A DNA stretch of 53,806 nt from a virus. The stretch lies in IMG/VR virus record IMGVR_UViG_3300018933_000006, positions 1 to 53,806 of that record; one strand, 5' to 3'. The position numbers and the translations under genes are program-made. The first letter of the stretch is position 1, and each line of letters starts with the position of its first letter. Shown piece by piece: positions 27,183 to 53,748 of this stretch. The notes beneath the pieces are model-generated. The model was not told the DNA's origin. It saw only the letters and a program-made list of their open reading frames with translations, and made no database searches.

Positions 27183-27578
27183 TCAGACCTCGCAGAACTT
27201 GAGGCCCTTCAGCGCCTCGTTGATCTGCTTGCCCTGCGCCTCGGTCGTCGTGACGTCCTCGAACGTGAACCGCTGCGAGGCGAAGTAGTCGAGGTTCTGG
27301 GCGCCGCCGTTGATCGCCATGCACTGGTTGCGGGCGGCGTCGATCGCCTTGTCCTCGTGCTTCCCGAGGTCCGGGTTGGCGGCGCGTAGCGCCCGGAGCA
27401 GCTCCTCGCGGTCGGCGCCGGTGGGCTCGGGCGGGAGGCCGGCGGCCTTCGCCGGGTCATCCTGCTGGCTGGCCGAGGCGGAGGCGCTGGGCTTGGTGTC
27501 GTCACTGCTGTCGTTGCTGGAGCAGGCGGCGAGTGTGAGCGCGGTGATGGCGACGGCTATGACGGTGCGGAGTCGCAT
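27183..27578 (-). CDS. Secreted lipoprotein, prophage cargo, 131 aa
   Basis: It begins MRLRTVIAVAITALTLAAC, a signal peptide with lipobox LAAC (Cys19), then a Ser/Asp-rich linker. The globular part ends with NQCMAINGG and LKGLKFCEV, two Cys that may pair. It recalls small actinobacterial secreted DUF732-like proteins, but weakly. ATG 27578 follows CAGGGGGGGACC. Two strong hairpins isolate it and a palindrome lies upstream, so it may be expressed in the lysogen, for example to exclude superinfecting phage. Confidence 0.8.
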   Translation of the reverse strand: MRLRTVIAVAITALTLAACSSNDSSDDTKPSASASASQQDDPAKAAGLPPEPTGADREELLRALRAANPDLGKHEDKAIDAARNQCMAINGGAQNLDYFASQRFTFEDVTTTEAQGKQINEALKGLKFCEV

Positions 27579-27690
27579 GGTCCCCCCCTGGAGCGGTGTG
27601 GATGAGGGGGCATCATGCCGTACCCGGTGTGATCGTTTCCGGGCATGCCAGATCTGCGGCTCAGTGTGAGGCATGATCGCGCGGAACGCA

Positions 27691-27704
27691 ACTACGGCCG
27701 TAGT
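27691..27704. promoter_or_regulatory. 14-bp palindrome upstream of the lipoprotein gene
   Basis: ACTACGGCCGTAGT is a perfect palindrome 113 bp upstream of the lipoprotein start and 28 bp from a terminator hairpin. It is a candidate operator for an independent lipoprotein promoter; no clear -10/-35 pair could be fixed. Confidence 0.45.
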
Positions 27705-27731
27705 GCTGATTGCCTCAGATGGAACGCACGA

Positions 27732-27765
27732 GGCCCCGCCGTCCACGGGGGGAGACGGCGGGGCC
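27732..27765. terminator. Strong terminator after the Spd-like module
   Basis: GGCCCCGCCGTC (27732-27743) and GACGGCGGGGCC (27754-27765): perfect 12-bp stem, 10-base loop. It lies 49 bases after the stop of the 56-aa gene and upstream of the lipoprotein. Confidence 0.8.
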
Positions 27766-27813
27766 GGTTGTCGGGCGCTACTCGACGCGAGCCACCAGTG
27801 TGGCAGGACGGCG

Positions 27814-27984
27814 TCAGGTCAGCTCATCGACGTCGGCCACACCGTTCTGCTCGCGCATCGCCCGATCGGACTGGATGGTGAACCGCCGGCGCTGCTCCGG
27901 CGTCCACGCGGCCGGGTTCTTGGGCAGCCCGGCGACCGTGTCCCGCAGCTGCTCGGTCTCGCTCTTGCGGTTGAAGAGGGCCAT
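27814..27984 (-). CDS. Small hypothetical protein, 56 aa
   Basis: ATG 27984 with ACAGGAGACCGCCATC upstream. It begins MALFNRKSETEQLRDTVAGL and continues KNPAAWTPEQRRRFTIQSDR. It is charged, helical and unknown. It lies between the iteron region and the terminator, so it may be the last gene of the Spd-like operon or a separate unit. Confidence 0.65.
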   Translation of the reverse strand: MALFNRKSETEQLRDTVAGLPKNPAAWTPEQRRRFTIQSDRAMREQNGVADVDELT

Positions 27985-28019
27985 GATGGCGGTCTCCTGT
28001 CTCGTGATCGGGATGGGAA

Positions 28020-28058
28020 CCGGGGCGGCCGGTAGCTGGCAGGCGCAGGCCGCCCCGG
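28020..28058. terminator. Hairpin CCGGGGCGGCC / GGCCGCCCCGG
   Basis: Perfect 11-bp inverted repeat (28020-28030, 28048-28058) with a 17-base loop. It lies between the iteron array and the 56-aa gene and may end transcription of the Spd-like operon. Confidence 0.6.
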
Positions 28059-28117
28059 TGTTCAGCGAGTGGGCTACTTGCCGTCGCTCTTGGTCATCTC
28101 GGCGAGGTTCTCCTTGG

Positions 28118-28203
28118 GGTAGACCGGCGGTAGATTCGCCGGTAGATCGGGGTAGATCGGCCGGTAGACGTGCAGGTCAGGCGGCGGTAGACGGCGCGGT
28201 AGA
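28118..28203 (+). repeat. Phased GGTAGA iteron array
   Basis: GGTAGA starts at 28118, 28129, 28141, 28151, 28163, 28186 and 28198, with a degenerate copy GGTCAG at 28175. Steps are 11, 12, 10, 12, 12, 11 and 12 bp, mean 11.4, so all face one side of the helix. Five lie after the stop of the membrane-wHTH gene, the degenerate copy contains that stop, and two lie in its last codons. Arrays like this serve as plasmid iterons, partition centromeres or conjugative clt loci; which applies here is unknown. Confidence 0.8.
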
Positions 28204-28782
28204 CATCTCGCCGGCTACAGCCGGGGAAGGGGCCAGATCGGCCCGCCGCACACCCCTCGTCGGGCTCTTGGAGCCGGGCACCTTCACTTTGGGCTGGACG
28301 GGGATGTGAAGGGCCTCCAAACGGGCCCTCAGGTCGGCCACCTTCCAGCCCTTTCCGTGGCCCTGCTCCTGGAGGTGGGCGAGGACGGTGCGGAGGTGCA
28401 CCGCGTCGGCGGTCCCCATGGCCTCCAGCAGGAGGGCGCGCACGGCGTCCAAGTCGGGCTCCGCGGAGGCCTCGTCGTCGGCCGCGGGGGCGGCCGTCGT
28501 CCCGGCCTTCCAGGCGGCGCGGATCCACCACCCGACGAGGAGCCACATCAGCCACGGCAGGGCGCGGACGACTGCCCACAGGGCGTAGGCCGCGGCGCCG
28601 AGCACGGCCAGGCGCAGCAGCGGACCGAGGGCGGCGCGCCACCCGTCGAGGTCGTCGCGGCGGCCGGCGCGCACCCACGCGGTGAGGGCGTCGGTGCGGC
28701 GCTGCCAGACGAGGGCGCTGCCGCGGCACAGCCGGTCGGCGGCGGTGGTGCGGGCGGCCCACAGAGCGAGTTGGCGGCGCAT
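28177..28782 (-). CDS. Membrane protein with C-terminal winged-helix-like domain (plasmid-spread type), 201 aa
   Basis: Two adjacent hydrophobic helices at about residues 55-95 (LLRLAVLGAAAYALWAVVRA, LPWLMWLLVGWWIRAAWKAG). Then comes a soluble domain, AVRALLLEAMGTADAVHLRT, KGWKVADLRARLEALHIPVQ and a basic TRGVRRADL end, which reads as a winged helix. I recall this architecture from Streptomyces conjugative elements beside spdB. It could tether the iteron array to the membrane. ATG 28782 overlaps the upstream stop. Confidence 0.7.
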   Translation of the reverse strand: MRRQLALWAARTTAADRLCRGSALVWQRRTDALTAWVRAGRRDDLDGWRAALGPLLRLAVLGAAAYALWAVVRALPWLMWLLVGWWIRAAWKAGTTAAPAADDEASAEPDLDAVRALLLEAMGTADAVHLRTVLAHLQEQGHGKGWKVADLRARLEALHIPVQPKVKVPGSKSPTRGVRRADLAPSPAVAGEMSTAPSTAA

Positions 28783-29282
28783 CACAGACCGTTCTCCAGG
28801 ATGGTGCGGCCCTCGGCGCCGATGGCGTTGACGAGGTCGGGCCACCAGCCGAGGAGCTCGGCGACGCCGGGCAGGAACCCGAGGACGGCGAACGAGCAGA
28901 TGCCGCCGACGATCCGCCGCTTGTCCTGCTTCCCCGAGCCCTTGAACAGCAGGATCACGCCGAGCAGGATCAGGCAGACCACGATGGCGCCCTCGTAGGT
29001 GAGGGTGCCCATGCGGCCGGTCGGCATCGGCGCCGCCCCGGACGTGCCGGTCACCTTGGACACGCCGGCGTCGCCGCTGCCGGTGAAGATGCCGGCGATA
29101 CCGGCTGCTCCCCAGCCGAGCGCGCCGCCGATGCAGATGGTGGCGAGGGAGCCGAGGCCGGCGCCGCTGGCGTAGGGCACGAGGGCCTTGGGGTCTCGGC
29201 CTCCCTTCCACCAGGGGCGCAAGTTGGCGTAGAGGATGCCGAGGGCGACGGCGGCGCCGGCGAGGGATAGGCCTACGTTCAT
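28782..29282 (-). CDS. Spd-like polytopic membrane protein, 166 aa
   Basis: Starts MNVGLSLAGAAVALGILYAN (helix 1), then LRPWWKGGRDPKALVPY. Further helices are GSLATICIGGALGWGAAGIA, GAIVVCLILLGVILLF and GGICSFAVLGFLPGVAELLG. The NLRPWWKGGRDPKALVPYA block is familiar from proteins near spd/tra genes in Streptomyces integrative conjugative elements. Overlaps both neighbours. Confidence 0.7.
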   Translation of the reverse strand: MNVGLSLAGAAVALGILYANLRPWWKGGRDPKALVPYASGAGLGSLATICIGGALGWGAAGIAGIFTGSGDAGVSKVTGTSGAAPMPTGRMGTLTYEGAIVVCLILLGVILLFKGSGKQDKRRIVGGICSFAVLGFLPGVAELLGWWPDLVNAIGAEGRTILENGL

Positions 29283-29947
29283 CGGGGGACTCCGGTGAGG
29301 AACTGGATTGGGTCGTACCAGGAGAGGGCGCCGAACGCGCCGATGAAGGTGACGGCGAGCGCGAACAGGCGTAAGGGGCTGCCTCCCTTGCGGACGATGG
29401 CGGTGATCGCGAGGGTGAGGGGGATGAGGCCGAGGGCGTAGCCCCAACCCACTCCCCAGTCCTCACGGGCGAGGCTGACGGTGAAGTGCCACGTGGTGGC
29501 GACTGAGTAGCCGGTGTGTGGGATCGGTGTGACGGCCAGCGTCAGCCCGGTGACGGCGTGCCAGGGGCGGACGTACCGGCCGAGCCAGGCTGTAATCCGT
29601 TCCCAGCGGGACGGTTCCGGATCGGGTTCCGCCCACGCCAGCACGACCTCGTGGACGTGACGGATCTCTACGGGGCGCGGCTGCGGATCGGGTGGAACGG
29701 GCGTCGGATCTGGCACTGCGGGTGGGGGCGGAGGGGGCGGCGGTGTCCGCCAGGGCGGGGCTTCACCGGGCTCCGGCGGCCGGGCGGGGAGCGGGGCGCC
29801 GGCGGGGATGATCCGGGTGGGGGTGACGGGGCGGGGCTCGGGGTCGTGCATGGGTGGCTCCTGGTGGCCGAGGGGGCGGGCGCCGAGGCGGCGGAGGTGG
29901 TGGCGGGCGCGCAGCTCGTCGCCGCCGGGCGACGGCCGCGCGCCCAT
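29279..29947 (-). CDS. Proline-rich membrane protein of the Spd-like operon, 222 aa
   Basis: A cytoplasmic Pro-rich N-terminus includes a run of eight prolines (about residues 75-82). Three helices follow: WHAVTGLTLAVTPI, WGYALGLIPLTLAITAIV and FALAVTFIGAFGALSW. ATG 29947 overlaps the upstream stop as TGATG, and third codon positions stay G/C from there. ATG 29851 (190 aa) with CAGGAGCCACCC is an alternative. Function unknown; membership in the Spd operon suggests an inner-membrane complex. Confidence 0.65.
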   Translation of the reverse strand: MGARPSPGGDELRARHHLRRLGARPLGHQEPPMHDPEPRPVTPTRIIPAGAPLPARPPEPGEAPPWRTPPPPPPPPAVPDPTPVPPDPQPRPVEIRHVHEVVLAWAEPDPEPSRWERITAWLGRYVRPWHAVTGLTLAVTPIPHTGYSVATTWHFTVSLAREDWGVGWGYALGLIPLTLAITAIVRKGGSPLRLFALAVTFIGAFGALSWYDPIQFLTGVPR

Positions 29948-30819
29948 CAGGCGCCGACCCGGAGGGCGCGGAGGTAGCGGTCGACGCTGCTCTGCGGGAC
30001 CTGCTTGCCGGTGGCGTTCCGGACGGTCCGGAGGACGGCTTCCGGGTCGCGGATTCCGGAGTCCCAGGCGTTCCGGACTGCTTCCTGCGTGGTCACGCGG
30101 CCCGAGCGGATCGGGCTGACCTTGGGATCCGGATCTTCCGAAGTGGGCTCCGGAGTTCCGGGTGCCTCCGGAATTGCGGATCCGTTCTCCTCGGGGGTTC
30201 CGCCGAGGCTGCGCCGCTCGGCGTCTACGAGGGCCTGGCCGCGCTGGAGTTCCCGCCGGATCGGGATCATGGCGAGCTGGCCGTCGACCTTCGCGCGACG
30301 GGCGGTCACCCACTGCTGGGTGCGTGGGTCGAGCGGCCGGGCGTGCACGCGCATCGCCATCGACCAGCCGCCCTTGGCGAGCGCGGACACGACCGCGCCG
30401 ACCGCACCGATCACCCACGTGTCGGCGATGAGGTAGCCGTGCGCGAAGACCGCGCCCATGGACACGGCGAGCGCCCACCGGCCGGCCCGCCGCGCGACCT
30501 GCGCCCGTTCGGGGTCGTAGCGCAGCAGCCACTCCACGCCCATGCACATGATCCAGCTCGCGTCGAAGGCGACCGCGGCGGCGTAGGCGACGGCGGCGAT
30601 GGTGACGGCGGACAGGAGGTCGCCGATGCTGGCGGTCGTCCAGGCAAGGGACGCAGTGACGAGGATGATGGCGCCGATGGTGACGGCGGTGCGGACGATG
30701 TGGTCCCAGTCGCGGGGCGGTGCGGGGACCTCGATCTGTTCGCGGTCGAGGACCATCTCGGTGACGCCGTCGACGGTGTGAGGGACGAGCCGGGTCCGCT
30801 CGATGGTGCGGGTCTTCAC
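29947..30819 (-). CDS. SpdB-like (DUF2637-type) membrane protein, 290 aa
   Basis: Residues 40-155 hold four membrane helices (IVRTAVTIGAIILVTASLAW, AVTIAAVAYAAAVAFDASWI, ALAVSMGAVFAHGYLIADTW, VIGAVGAVVSALAKGGWSMA). Then QQWVTARRAKVDGQLAMIPI and a C-terminal wHTH-like segment (AVRNAWDSGIRDPEAVLRTV). This is the SpdB layout of Streptomyces plasmids, where it supports intramycelial spread of DNA together with TraB. No TraB is present here. Start GTG 30819. Confidence 0.75.
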   Translation of the reverse strand: MKTRTIERTRLVPHTVDGVTEMVLDREQIEVPAPPRDWDHIVRTAVTIGAIILVTASLAWTTASIGDLLSAVTIAAVAYAAAVAFDASWIMCMGVEWLLRYDPERAQVARRAGRWALAVSMGAVFAHGYLIADTWVIGAVGAVVSALAKGGWSMAMRVHARPLDPRTQQWVTARRAKVDGQLAMIPIRRELQRGQALVDAERRSLGGTPEENGSAIPEAPGTPEPTSEDPDPKVSPIRSGRVTTQEAVRNAWDSGIRDPEAVLRTVRNATGKQVPQSSVDRYLRALRVGA

Positions 30820-30885
30820 GGTGCAGCTCCAAGAGGTGGCCGCCCCGCGCCGGGGGAATGTCGCGCGGGGCGGCCGGTCTGGTGG

Positions 30886-31053
30886 TCAGCTGTGGTCGTC
30901 GGTCCAGCCGAGGCGGGTGCGGATGTCGGCGCCGGCGGCGTAGTCGGCCTGGCAGGCGGCGACGGTGGCGGGCTGGGTGGCGACGCTGCCGAGCTGGGGC
31001 TCGTAGTGCTCCGGGCTGTGCTGCTCGGGCTGCTGGTCGGTACCGTGGGGCAT
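30886..31053 (-). CDS. Small hydrophilic protein, 55 aa
   Basis: First gene of the Spd-like operon. ATG 31053 has AGGAGAG at proper distance; ATG 31059 is too close to it. Sequence MPHGTDQQPEQHSPEHYEPQ is His/Gln/Pro-rich, then QADYAAGADIRTRLGWTDDHS. No domain recognised. Confidence 0.65.
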   Translation of the reverse strand: MPHGTDQQPEQHSPEHYEPQLGSVATQPATVAACQADYAAGADIRTRLGWTDDHS

Positions 31054-31171
31054 GGTCATCTCTCCTGTTCACGGCAGGTGGATGGCTGGCCCCGACCCAT
31101 GTGGAGCTGCAACTCCGGGCCGGGGCCTTGTTGCTGAGCGGAGACCAGGGCGGCCTCGCCCGACCAAGCTA

Positions 31172-31205
31172 AACCCCGGGGTTGTGGTAGCGCAACCCCG
31201 GGGTT
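31172..31205. promoter_or_regulatory. Twin palindromic operator AACCCCGGGGTT in a divergent promoter
   Basis: The perfect 12-bp palindrome AACCCCGGGGTT occurs at 31172-31183 and 31194-31205, centres 22 bp (two turns) apart. A promoter-like pair TTGTGG (31182-31187) and TTAGGGT (31204-31210) for the + strand overlaps both. It sits between the Spd-like operon (-) and the HTH gene (+), so one regulator, most likely the 31244 product, can silence both directions. Confidence 0.75.
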
Positions 31206-31243
31206 AGGGTCGTGTTGGCCGCACCGCAGAGAGGAGCGCGGTA

Positions 31244-31558
31244 GTGGCAGACCAGCCCGAGGAGGTGACACGCCTGGTGGAAGCCATCAAGGCGTTCGAG
31301 GCGATCGAAGACGACGAGGCGTGCGCCGTCGCCGTGTCGCAGGCGTTGAAGGACTGGACCGGCCACCAGACGAGGCTGCGCCAGCTGCGGCAGCAGCGTG
31401 TCCAGGCGCTCAAGGCGCAGGGGAGGACGTGGGAGGAGATCGGCCGGCTCCTCGGTGGGATCAGTGCGGCGCGGGCGCAGCAGATCGCGGCTGGGGTGAG
31501 CGGGGCGTCGCGGCGGAAGGCGGAGACAGCGAAGCGGGCGGAGGCGTCCGATGGATGA
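31244..31558 (+). CDS. Small HTH DNA-binding protein, likely local regulator, 104 aa
   Basis: An N-terminal helical part (ALKDWTGHQTRLRQLRQQRV) leads into a sigma-like HTH (ALKAQGRTWEEIGRLLGGIS, AARAQQIAAGV). GTG 31244 follows GAGAGGAGCGCGG. It lies directly downstream of the twin palindrome, so autoregulation and control of the Spd-like operon are the simplest reading. Confidence 0.75.
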   Translation: MADQPEEVTRLVEAIKAFEAIEDDEACAVAVSQALKDWTGHQTRLRQLRQQRVQALKAQGRTWEEIGRLLGGISAARAQQIAAGVSGASRRKAETAKRAEASDG

Positions 31559-31979
31559 GTTCGTGGAGTGGCTGCGTGCCCAGCTCGACGAGGACGAGCG
31601 GATCGCGTTCTCCGCCGGGCACACGCTGGGCGGTCAGCTCGCGCTCGACTGGGAGGTGGCTGGCGCCGGCGTAGGCGTATGGACCGTGGAGCGGCCAGTG
31701 AACGAGCCGCCCGTGGTGCCCGAGACGCTGATGGAGGACATGCCTGGTTACGAGGCGGCCCGGGCGAGGGCTCTGCATATCGCGAGCCACGGTCCGGCGC
31801 GGGTGCTGCGCGAGATCGACGCCAAGCGTCGGATCCTCGTCGAGCACGCGCTCAACGGCTGGGTTTGCACCACCTGCGATACCGGGGAAGTCGAACAGGT
31901 CTTTCCCTGCCCGACGCTGCGCATCCTCGCCCTGCCCTACGCGGACCGGTCGGGCTACCGCGACGAGTGGCGGCCGTAG
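31551..31979 (+). CDS. DUF6221-family protein, 142 aa
   Basis: The N-terminus MDEFVEWLRAQLDEDERIAF, the block HIASHGPARVLREIDAKRRI, and the end CPTLRILALPYADRSGYRDEW are the conserved parts of the Streptomyces DUF6221 family. The middle has a CTTC pair. Overlaps the HTH gene by 8 bases. Function is unknown; the family is common in phages and integrative elements. Confidence 0.8.
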   Translation: MDEFVEWLRAQLDEDERIAFSAGHTLGGQLALDWEVAGAGVGVWTVERPVNEPPVVPETLMEDMPGYEAARARALHIASHGPARVLREIDAKRRILVEHALNGWVCTTCDTGEVEQVFPCPTLRILALPYADRSGYRDEWRP

Positions 31980-52334: not shown

Positions 52335-53711
52335 ATGCCCTACGTGGAGCGACGCGGCAACAGCATCCGCGTCAAGTGGTGGGGCGGCGAGTACAAGCCA
52401 GGCCCGGACGGCAAGCCCACCAAGACCAAGAAGTACGAGTCCGCCTCCGGGCCAGAGCCCGGCGTTCCGTTCAGGGATGAGGAGGAGGCGTACAACTACG
52501 GCCTCGACCGGGAGCACGACGTCCGCCACGGCAAGCACATCCCGCGCGCGGACGCGAGGACGCCGATGGAGGAGTACTGCTGGACCTGGTTCGAGGCGGC
52601 GGAACTCCGCCCGAATTCCGTCGACACCTACAAGTCCATGCTCAACGCGGTGATCATCCCAGACTGGCAGGGGCGTGCTGTCGGTGCCATCACGCCCCCT
52701 GAGTACGACCTGTGGAAGAAGAGCATCGAACGCAGGTACTCCGCGAACTACGCCAGCCAGCTGCGCGGGGTGTTCCGCATGCTGATGGAGGACGCCGTCC
52801 TCAAGTACAAGCTGCGCACGGACTCGCCGATCGTCGAGCAGCACCGACGCGGCCGGTACACCAAGAAGCAGACGCGCCGGAAGAAGCGGCAGCTGCCCAT
52901 CGAGGCCGTGCACAAGCTCGCCGTCAACGCCTACCACGTCTGGGGCTTCACCGGCTGGACGTACATCTGGACCGTCGCCTTCACCGGCATGAGGCCGCCC
53001 GGCGAGATGTACGGTCTCCAGCGCGGCTACACCTCGGCGCACTGGCCGGCCTCCGACCCGGATCCGGAGAGGCGCAAGGAGGCCCTGGAGCGGTACCAGG
53101 GCAAGCTGCACGCGCTGCGTGTGCAGCACCAGCTCTACCGAGCGGACGGCCTACCGACACTCGCCGGTCCGAAGTATGAGTCCTACCGGACGCAGGTGAT
53201 CCCCCCGTTCCTGCACGAGATGCACGCCGCGCTGCTGGCCTCTCATGACAAGCCGTTCGTGTTCCTATCGCTGACCGGCAAGCCGCTGCTGGGAGCGCAG
53301 TTCGAGCGGGACTACTGGCATCCGATCCGGGACGGCGCCAAGGAGCGGAAGGCGCGCAAGGGCTACGAACGGTTCACCCGGCCCAAGCTGCCGGCCGTGG
53401 AAGAGATGGCAGGGCAAGATCTCTACCGATTGCGGCACTGGCACCGGGAGCTGCTGGACGAGCCGGGCGCCGACATCGCGCGCGTCGCGAAGGAGGCCCG
53501 GATGGGTCACGAGCTGCCGGGCGTTGAGGGCGTCTACAGCATGGTGACCTTGGCGATGGAGGAGCGCATCGTCGAGTACCTCCAGGAGGTCTGGGAAAAG
53601 TTTCTGAGCACGGGCCCGTGGCTTCCGCCTTTTCCCAACGCTCTCCCAGATGATCAAGGAAACGCTCCGTCCGCGCTGTTCAGCGACTTCCGCATCCTTG
53701 AAGGAGAGTGA
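52335..53711 (+). CDS. int: Tyrosine site-specific integrase, 458 aa
   Basis: N-terminal arm-binding part (IRVKWWGGEYKPG), SAM-like core-binding domain (about 85-190), catalytic domain 200-410: R220 in TGMRPPGEMYGLQ, Y364-x-x-R367 in LYRLRHWHREL (Tyr at the usual His position), H392 in RMGHEL, nucleophile Y401 in VYSMV. ATG 52335 follows GAGGGAGGGCGC. The TGA stop (53709-53711) is the first three bases of the att core, so the gene abuts attR, as usual for integrases. It catalyses integration and, with Xis, excision. Confidence 0.95.
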   Translation: MPYVERRGNSIRVKWWGGEYKPGPDGKPTKTKKYESASGPEPGVPFRDEEEAYNYGLDREHDVRHGKHIPRADARTPMEEYCWTWFEAAELRPNSVDTYKSMLNAVIIPDWQGRAVGAITPPEYDLWKKSIERRYSANYASQLRGVFRMLMEDAVLKYKLRTDSPIVEQHRRGRYTKKQTRRKKRQLPIEAVHKLAVNAYHVWGFTGWTYIWTVAFTGMRPPGEMYGLQRGYTSAHWPASDPDPERRKEALERYQGKLHALRVQHQLYRADGLPTLAGPKYESYRTQVIPPFLHEMHAALLASHDKPFVFLSLTGKPLLGAQFERDYWHPIRDGAKERKARKGYERFTRPKLPAVEEMAGQDLYRLRHWHRELLDEPGADIARVAKEARMGHELPGVEGVYSMVTLAMEERIVEYLQEVWEKFLSTGPWLPPFPNALPDDQGNAPSALFSDFRILEGE

Positions 53712-53748
53712 TGAAGTCGATGAACCGGCACATGGGCAAGGTCGACTT
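53709..53748 (+). repeat. attR: attR core (40-bp direct repeat)
   Basis: Perfect copy of 64-103. It begins with the integrase stop codon. The flanks differ by one base immediately outside on each side. Confidence 0.95.

Follow-up and report, generated by a model that had tools for sequence, protein, structure and literature searches.

A plasmid-spread-related membrane-protein module recurs in Streptomyces phages and prophages

Within a 53,806-nucleotide viral DNA (IMG/VR record IMGVR_UViG_3300018933_000006, analysed at its full length and termed the window) lies a block of four overlapping membrane-protein genes, b, c, d and e (30819-28177, minus strand), followed downstream by terminase genes and preceded by a divergent helix-turn-helix (HTH) gene, r. 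Profile comparisons show protein b to be a distant SpdB, homologous to the SpdB and SpdB2 spread proteins of plasmids over a region of four transmembrane helices. Furthermore, b (or a DUF2637 protein instead), d, e and often c recur together in many phages and prophages and on a small plasmid. The module is wider than a sequence-only reading of this DNA had first noted: it is recurrent in phages, has its own presumed regulator and operator, and was not seen together with TraB. The recurrence in viruses of a membrane set related to plasmid spread suggests a way to hold or move virus DNA in a multicellular host, and spread or segregation of the phage DNA is our leading interpretation of its function.

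How phage spread within a multicellular, septate bacterium is an open question that this module touches, and one passage of a review raises the question of whether phage infections are held back by internal membranes (PMC5133688). The module is a natural case of Spd-type proteins without an adjacent TraB gene, and it gives context to four PHROG families of unknown function. It is also carried by phages of laboratory hosts (VWB of S. venezuelae, Kromp of S. lividans), which makes the idea of spread directly testable. In a literature search limited to open-licence papers we found no description of an Spd/DUF2637 module in phages.

Profile evidence relating protein b to plasmid SpdB

The sequence-only reading had named an SpdB/DUF2637-type protein among the four and likened the genes to the Spd genes of plasmids. 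The SpdB part of that label stands, whereas the DUF2637 part does not. Gene b (30819-29947, minus strand) encodes a protein of 290 residues. We built a hidden Markov model (HMM) of its family from 16 members, 13 of phage type (one on pSITFR-21c) and three from small plasmids, and searched it against 3227 open reading frames (ORFs) from the window and 15 stretches of named records. Outside its training set, this HMM matches only Kromp gp82 (E = 5.9e-7), SLP2 SpdB2 (1.3e-6) and pIJ101 SpdB (6.4e-6). A 13-member version built without the three small-plasmid proteins still recovers them (E at most 1.4e-31), as well as Kromp gp82 (3.7e-7). Alignment by hhalign of 64 b proteins with pIJ101 SpdB and SLP2 SpdB2, a comparison to which pSVH1 SpdB2 did not belong, gave 93.7% and an E value of 1.8e-7 over 134 columns covering the four-helix region. 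The likeness to pIJ101 includes a GntR gene lying divergent from its tra-spd genes.

DUF2637 was rejected as a direct label for b. The corresponding Pfam profile, PF10935, does not match b at E up to 1 or anything in the window at E up to 10, its curated cut-off of 22.8 bits is not reached by b, and hhalign of b against seven proteins of the DUF2637 group gave only 10.6%. In a control at E <= 10, eight of 14 control genomes had a PF10935 match, none of them over the cut-off, and VWB and Kromp were over it. PF10935 also misses pIJ101 SpdB and SLP2 SpdB2, so its silence on b is no argument against SpdB membership. What DUF2637 proteins share with b is a place: they occupy the b slot in VWB, in Kromp, on the plasmid NBC_01454 and in three further modules.

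The AlphaFold2 model of b (pLDDT 87.4, pTM 0.56) has an N-terminal beta hairpin followed by four long, predicted transmembrane helices and another long helix; a low-confidence linker then leads to a C-terminal three-helix domain that resembles an HTH. Searches for a solved structure or fold matching b found none at E <= 0.001, the best match by sequence having an E value of 0.073, and Pfam gave nothing over its cut-offs for b, c, d or e.

The block and proteins c, d and e

The four overlapping genes seen in the sequence-only reading are borne out, since genes homologous to each of them occur elsewhere in an unchanged order; they are thus not chance ORFs. Genes b and c overlap by 1 nt, c and d by 4 nt, and d and e by 1 nt, as called by a codon-bias script trained on VWB rather than by a standard gene finder. 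A simple hydropathy count gives three membrane segments in b, two in c, four in d and one in e. PHROG assigns all four proteins to families of unknown function.

Protein c (29947-29279, minus strand; 222 residues, with a later ATG possible at 29851; phrog_15316) has a proline-rich N-terminus and C-terminal transmembrane helices, and is the least constant of the four. Protein d (29282-28782, minus strand; 166 residues; phrog_16379) is a polytopic membrane protein whose AlphaFold2 model has a pLDDT of 85.7. Protein e (28782-28177, minus strand; 201 residues; phrog_5650), for which the codon-bias caller favours a GTG at 28785, consists in alignment of one or more transmembrane segments and a conserved C-terminal domain. 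By eye this domain looks like a winged helix; the best solved-structure match to e by sequence has an E value of 0.078.

Against the closest relative, at locus L062 of Streptomyces sp. SW4 (L numbers denote loci), dN/dS is 0.30 for b, 0.50 for d and 0.39 for e. Across b, c, d and e, the comparisons with L049, L052, L075 and L033 give values from 0.27 to 1.31, which may be inflated by segment exchange. For d, dN/dS exceeds 1 in two of five comparisons (L033 and L075) and is 0.35-0.50 against L062, L049 and L052, a pattern reflecting either diversifying selection or segment exchange.

Recurrence of the module

Among named phages, VWB and Kromp have homologues of c, d and e next to a DUF2637 protein that takes the place of b, TurkishDelight has b together with c-, d- and e-like genes, and SF3 has b only. 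Terminases near the module fall into three types by BLAST (the window, Kromp/VWB and TurkishDelight); those of the window and TurkishDelight match phrog_2, while those of Kromp and VWB do not. In VWB, c and d homologues lie in two frames beneath gp25 (L021, 17668-19508), and the annotated start of gp26 overlaps d in another frame; the gp25/gp26 annotation looks wrong.

We found b encoded in 40 viral contigs and 31 genome loci. These 71 b loci carry 66 distinct b proteins, some sequences being present twice. Where the context is full, b is followed by both d and e in 34 of the 38 viral contigs and 20 of the 27 genome loci, and by at least one of them in 35 and 26, respectively. Protein c was recognised in 22 of these viral contigs and 20 of these genome loci; where it was not, a gene of 46-57 codons with two predicted membrane segments often follows b. 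It is important to note that the HMMs for c, d and e were built from members chosen partly by position, such that label and position are not fully independent in these counts.

A sample of 295 genomes of the genus, centred on the genome of L062, has d in 51 and b in 33, both of which are lower bounds given that few candidates per genome were scored. Thirteen of 30 short d loci carry an upstream b label; the other 17 lack one, in some because the short flank cuts the gene. When seven unlabelled proteins in the b slot were tested, three proved to be DUF2637 proteins, one (L111) had an HTH_17 domain at its C-terminus, and three had no match over the cut-off.

Plasmid counterparts and translocase genes

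A parallel on a plasmid is the module of NBC_01454, a 10.3-kb Streptomyces plasmid with an annotated replication gene. It has the same order as the window: a divergent regulator comes first, a DUF2637 gene stands where b would be, and genes resembling c, d, e and f follow, with identities of 25% (c), 41% (d) and 30% (e). It differs in its plasmid setting and in that GntR replaces r and DUF2637 replaces b. There is no FtsK match on this plasmid, the search having covered this one of the strain's plasmids. NBC_01456 has a doubled form of this module. Among plasmid records, the window's b has four matches, c none, d two and e one (partly). One record, the circular 103.5-kb 'plasmid' pSITFR-21c (NZ_CP134608; L008, L093, L094), combines the module with capsid, minor head, amidase and ParB-like genes and is probably a Streptomyces phage-plasmid. 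A phage-capsid-like gene on a conjugative plasmid is described in one part of PMC3583192.

The sequence-only reading had also stated that the window lacks a TraB/FtsK-like translocase, and we agree: there is no FtsK/SpoIIIE match in it at E <= 0.1. The contrast with pIJ101 and SLP2 is that their spdB genes lie beside or near a traB-type gene, whereas phage b genes lie with d, e and mostly c, and the records tested show no FtsK or TraB. PF01580 (FtsK_SpoIIIE) is over its cut-off in pIJ101 and SLP2 and sub-threshold in three other plasmids. A two-sequence TraB HMM found nothing within eight genes of b at any of the 71 b loci, but the ATPases of L056 and L060 escaped it as well. At these two loci an ATPase-like protein that scores below threshold is encoded by the second gene after b, there is no d or e label, and in L060 a transglycosylase/NlpC protein is encoded between b and the ATPase-like gene. 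Including these, a b-like gene stands near a conjugative-type or AAA ATPase without a d or e label in six cases (L056, L060, pIJ101, SLP2, pADI95-16c and a Protofrankia plasmid). A plasmid of S. scopuliridis has d- and e-like genes with sub-threshold FtsK places 16-23 kb away.

We scored phage structural and conjugation markers on 111 overlapping regions (40 viral, 31 around genome b genes, 40 around genome d genes). Phage structural markers occur in 53 and conjugation markers in two (L056 and L060, whose own ATPases were among the queries); no region has both kinds, and 56 have neither. The marker set was small and made by hand, so the absence of a marker is weak evidence.

On the plasmid side, VWB gp24 matches 330 plasmid records, mostly of Streptomyces; the 60 matches listed have about 66-74% identity over 43-53% of its length. 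Four such plasmids were inspected, and an ATPase/ParA gene lies just upstream of the gp24 match in L026 and L027, and a type IV secretion system (T4SS)-type gene just downstream in L025.

Integration of the phage

The window holds an exact 40-bp direct repeat (64-103 and 53709-53748), which probably represents attL and attR of a prophage. The likely integrase gene adjoining it (52335-53711) was assigned from its C-terminus by eye; searches of its product against Pfam (E <= 0.01) and PHROG (E <= 0.001) gave no match. Because an exact repeat at the ends stands next to a likely integrase, the window is most likely a whole integrated prophage. The repeat apparently lies inside a small host gene for a membrane protein, in its 3' portion.

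Possible functions of the block

The interpretation that we favour, tentatively and with a little less than even confidence, is that the block encodes a self-regulated, Spd-derived membrane complex of temperate Streptomyces phages, which binds phage DNA and aids its segregation or its spread through the mycelium. Protein b would bind DNA through its HTH-like C-terminus, and e perhaps binds DNA too. Together, b, c, d and e would assemble at the cytoplasmic membrane and hyphal cross-walls, hold phage DNA there, whether newly injected or excised and replicating, and aid its segregation into, or passage to, neighbouring compartments. Kor repressors control plasmid transfer genes, and r would similarly repress the operon until it is needed. 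A motor could be supplied in trans by a host FtsK-type protein, or by the TraB of a resident plasmid or actinomycete integrative and conjugative element (AICE); failing that, the complex alone may serve as an anchor or channel.

Several points from plasmid systems are in keeping with such a scheme. The SpdB2 of pSVH1 binds double-stranded DNA non-specifically, oligomerises and contacts TraB, according to a portion of PMC4170104, and Spd proteins are described in an excerpt of PMC12857230 as membrane proteins required for intramycelial transfer of double-stranded DNA. A section of PMC5133688 reports that a plasmid deleted for traB still spreads when the recipient has TraB. The AICE pSLS, an integrative element with spd genes (spdB123; from part of PMC3218068), parallels an integrated prophage with a spread-type module, but its spd genes are contiguous to tra, whereas the phages have no tra match. 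A bolder version, which we consider rather unlikely, would make the block a bacterial counterpart of the movement proteins of plant viruses: a self-regulated membrane machine derived from, or shared with, plasmid spread, through which naked phage DNA colonises neighbouring compartments without lysis or virions, with a motor in trans or with none, c, d and e acting instead.

A number of results weigh against spread or segregation. Plasmid spread needs TraB, as stated in the same section of PMC5133688, and PF01580 is absent from all 14 phage or viral records tested. Clt-like GACCCGGA repeats do not cluster in the window, 11 scattered copies being found against 5.8 expected; this count is of the pSVH1-type 8-mer only, and three of 100 shuffles reach 11. 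With a weak excess and no cluster, TraB recognition repeats were rejected as a feature of the window. The 13-member b HMM reaches pIJ101 SpdB only at E = 1.4 and does not match SLP2 SpdB2, and the hhalign result of b against the DUF2637 group is low. The profile for c fails to find it in 16 of the 38 viral contigs, the only matches of c, d and e are to PHROG families without a known function, and a fold search of the PDB with d gave nothing at E <= 0.001. Lastly, the window is apparently an integrated prophage, in which case segregation in the lysogen would not be needed. The sequence-only reading had imagined an extrachromosomal form; the 40-bp end repeat points to integration for this phage, but such a form may fit relatives such as pSITFR-21c.

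The main rival is exclusion, an explanation that we think improbable on balance and that covers the same facts less specifically than spread or segregation does. The complex, in the lysogen or early in infection, would keep competing phages or conjugative plasmids from entering or from spreading within the mycelium, for instance with b as a decoy SpdB that poisons their TraB/Spd machine. This would suit temperate phages that carry an operon of membrane-protein genes beside a divergent HTH gene (Kromp and TurkishDelight are annotated with a tyrosine integrase and an immunity repressor, VWB with an integrase), and a protein related to a plasmid spread protein yet lacking a motor. It sits less well with the similar module on a plasmid, where anti-plasmid action would need to spare its carrier, or with the DNA-binding-like domain at the end of b and perhaps e, which is unusual among exclusion proteins. 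Nor did eight proteins searched against PADLOC give a match at E <= 0.01, the best being to AbiEi over 44 residues of b (E = 0.013); a known anti-phage defence system was rejected on this basis.

The same C-terminal domains could instead belong to a membrane-tethered, DNA-binding regulator or prophage anchor, in which b and e control or position genes of the phage or the host from the membrane and take no part in DNA passage. The three-helix domain of the b model, the HTH_17 domain of the b-slot protein in L111 and the conserved end of e are all consistent with this, but the homology to SpdB spans the membrane region, and two additional membrane proteins would be left without a clear use; we judge it distinctly unlikely. 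Least probable of all, and in our view very unlikely, is that the block is passive cargo: a cassette of plasmid origin that the phage retains as a moron and draws no benefit from. Its presence in different phages and on plasmids would be expected of cargo, as would the dN/dS above 1 for d in some comparisons, yet b, d and e stay together in most loci with full context and their dN/dS against L062 is well below 1. Spread or segregation of the phage DNA remains the interpretation that we prefer.

Regulatory region and neighbouring genes

The sequence-only reading had credited the block with its own operator, regulator and terminators. A divergent HTH gene, palindromes and perfect hairpins are indeed present, but the terminators are less secure. 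Gene r (31244-31558, plus strand) encodes a 104-residue HTH protein (phrog_686, E = 5e-4), the presumed repressor of the block. In the gap between r and a, two perfect 12-bp palindromes AACCCCGGGGTT, at 31172-31183 and 31194-31205, form the presumed operator (31172-31205); the sequence is unique to these positions in the whole window.

Fifteen inverted repeats were listed in 27600-31260, of which four are fully complementary with a loop, all intergenic (r|a, a|b, e|f and f|lipoprotein). Those of the a|b gap (30838-30875, 13 bp), the e|f gap (28019-28059, 12 bp) and the f|lipoprotein gap (27732-27765, 12 bp; downstream of f, the presumed end of the block) are perfect, GC-rich hairpins without a T-run. 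That these three terminate transcription is only inferred, given that they lack a T-run and that a standard terminator scan found one site against 1.0 expected. A sigma-70 promoter scan found none, other Streptomyces promoter types being outside its scope.

Palindromes are enriched in the divergent gaps: nine of 63 distinct gaps hold a perfect one of 16 bp or more, against 0.32 expected (at most three in 200 shuffles). An r homologue is the divergent gene of 24 of the 63 regions, and six of these 24 gaps have such a palindrome against 0.18 expected. In the seven r-type gaps with a palindrome of at least 12 bp, the window included, the palindrome begins 36-41 nt ahead of the start codon of r; L078 and L080, which are among the seven, have the same sequence. 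No perfect 12-bp palindrome was found in the remaining 17 r-type gaps. In L074, which is outside the count of seven, a 24-bp palindrome lies across the predicted r start. Palindrome sequences vary from locus to locus, as is expected of repressors with private operators. Upstream of the module, the palindrome TTGCCATATGGCAA is common to L020, L056 and L079, and CTACAC..GTGTAG to L004, L016 and L038; such sharing suggests that a few repressor types may be swapped between modules.

Next to r lies gene s (31551-31979, plus strand), whose 142-residue product is a DUF6221 protein (Pfam E = 6.7e-30). Gene a (31059-30886, minus strand) encodes a small soluble protein of 57 residues, with homologues upstream of b in L013, L015, L017, L037, L041 and others. 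Gene f (27984-27814, minus strand; 56 residues) has 56% identity over 45 residues to the gp86 place of Kromp.

The placement of the block beside the terminase, as originally described, is confirmed. The large terminase gene (26571-25300) is on the minus strand like the block, as are the portal and capsid genes further downstream, and the gene at 27119-26571 is taken as the small terminase on the basis of its position and an HTH_38 domain. Between the module and this presumed small terminase gene lies a lipoprotein gene (27183-27578), and related lipoproteins follow the module in L066 and L068.

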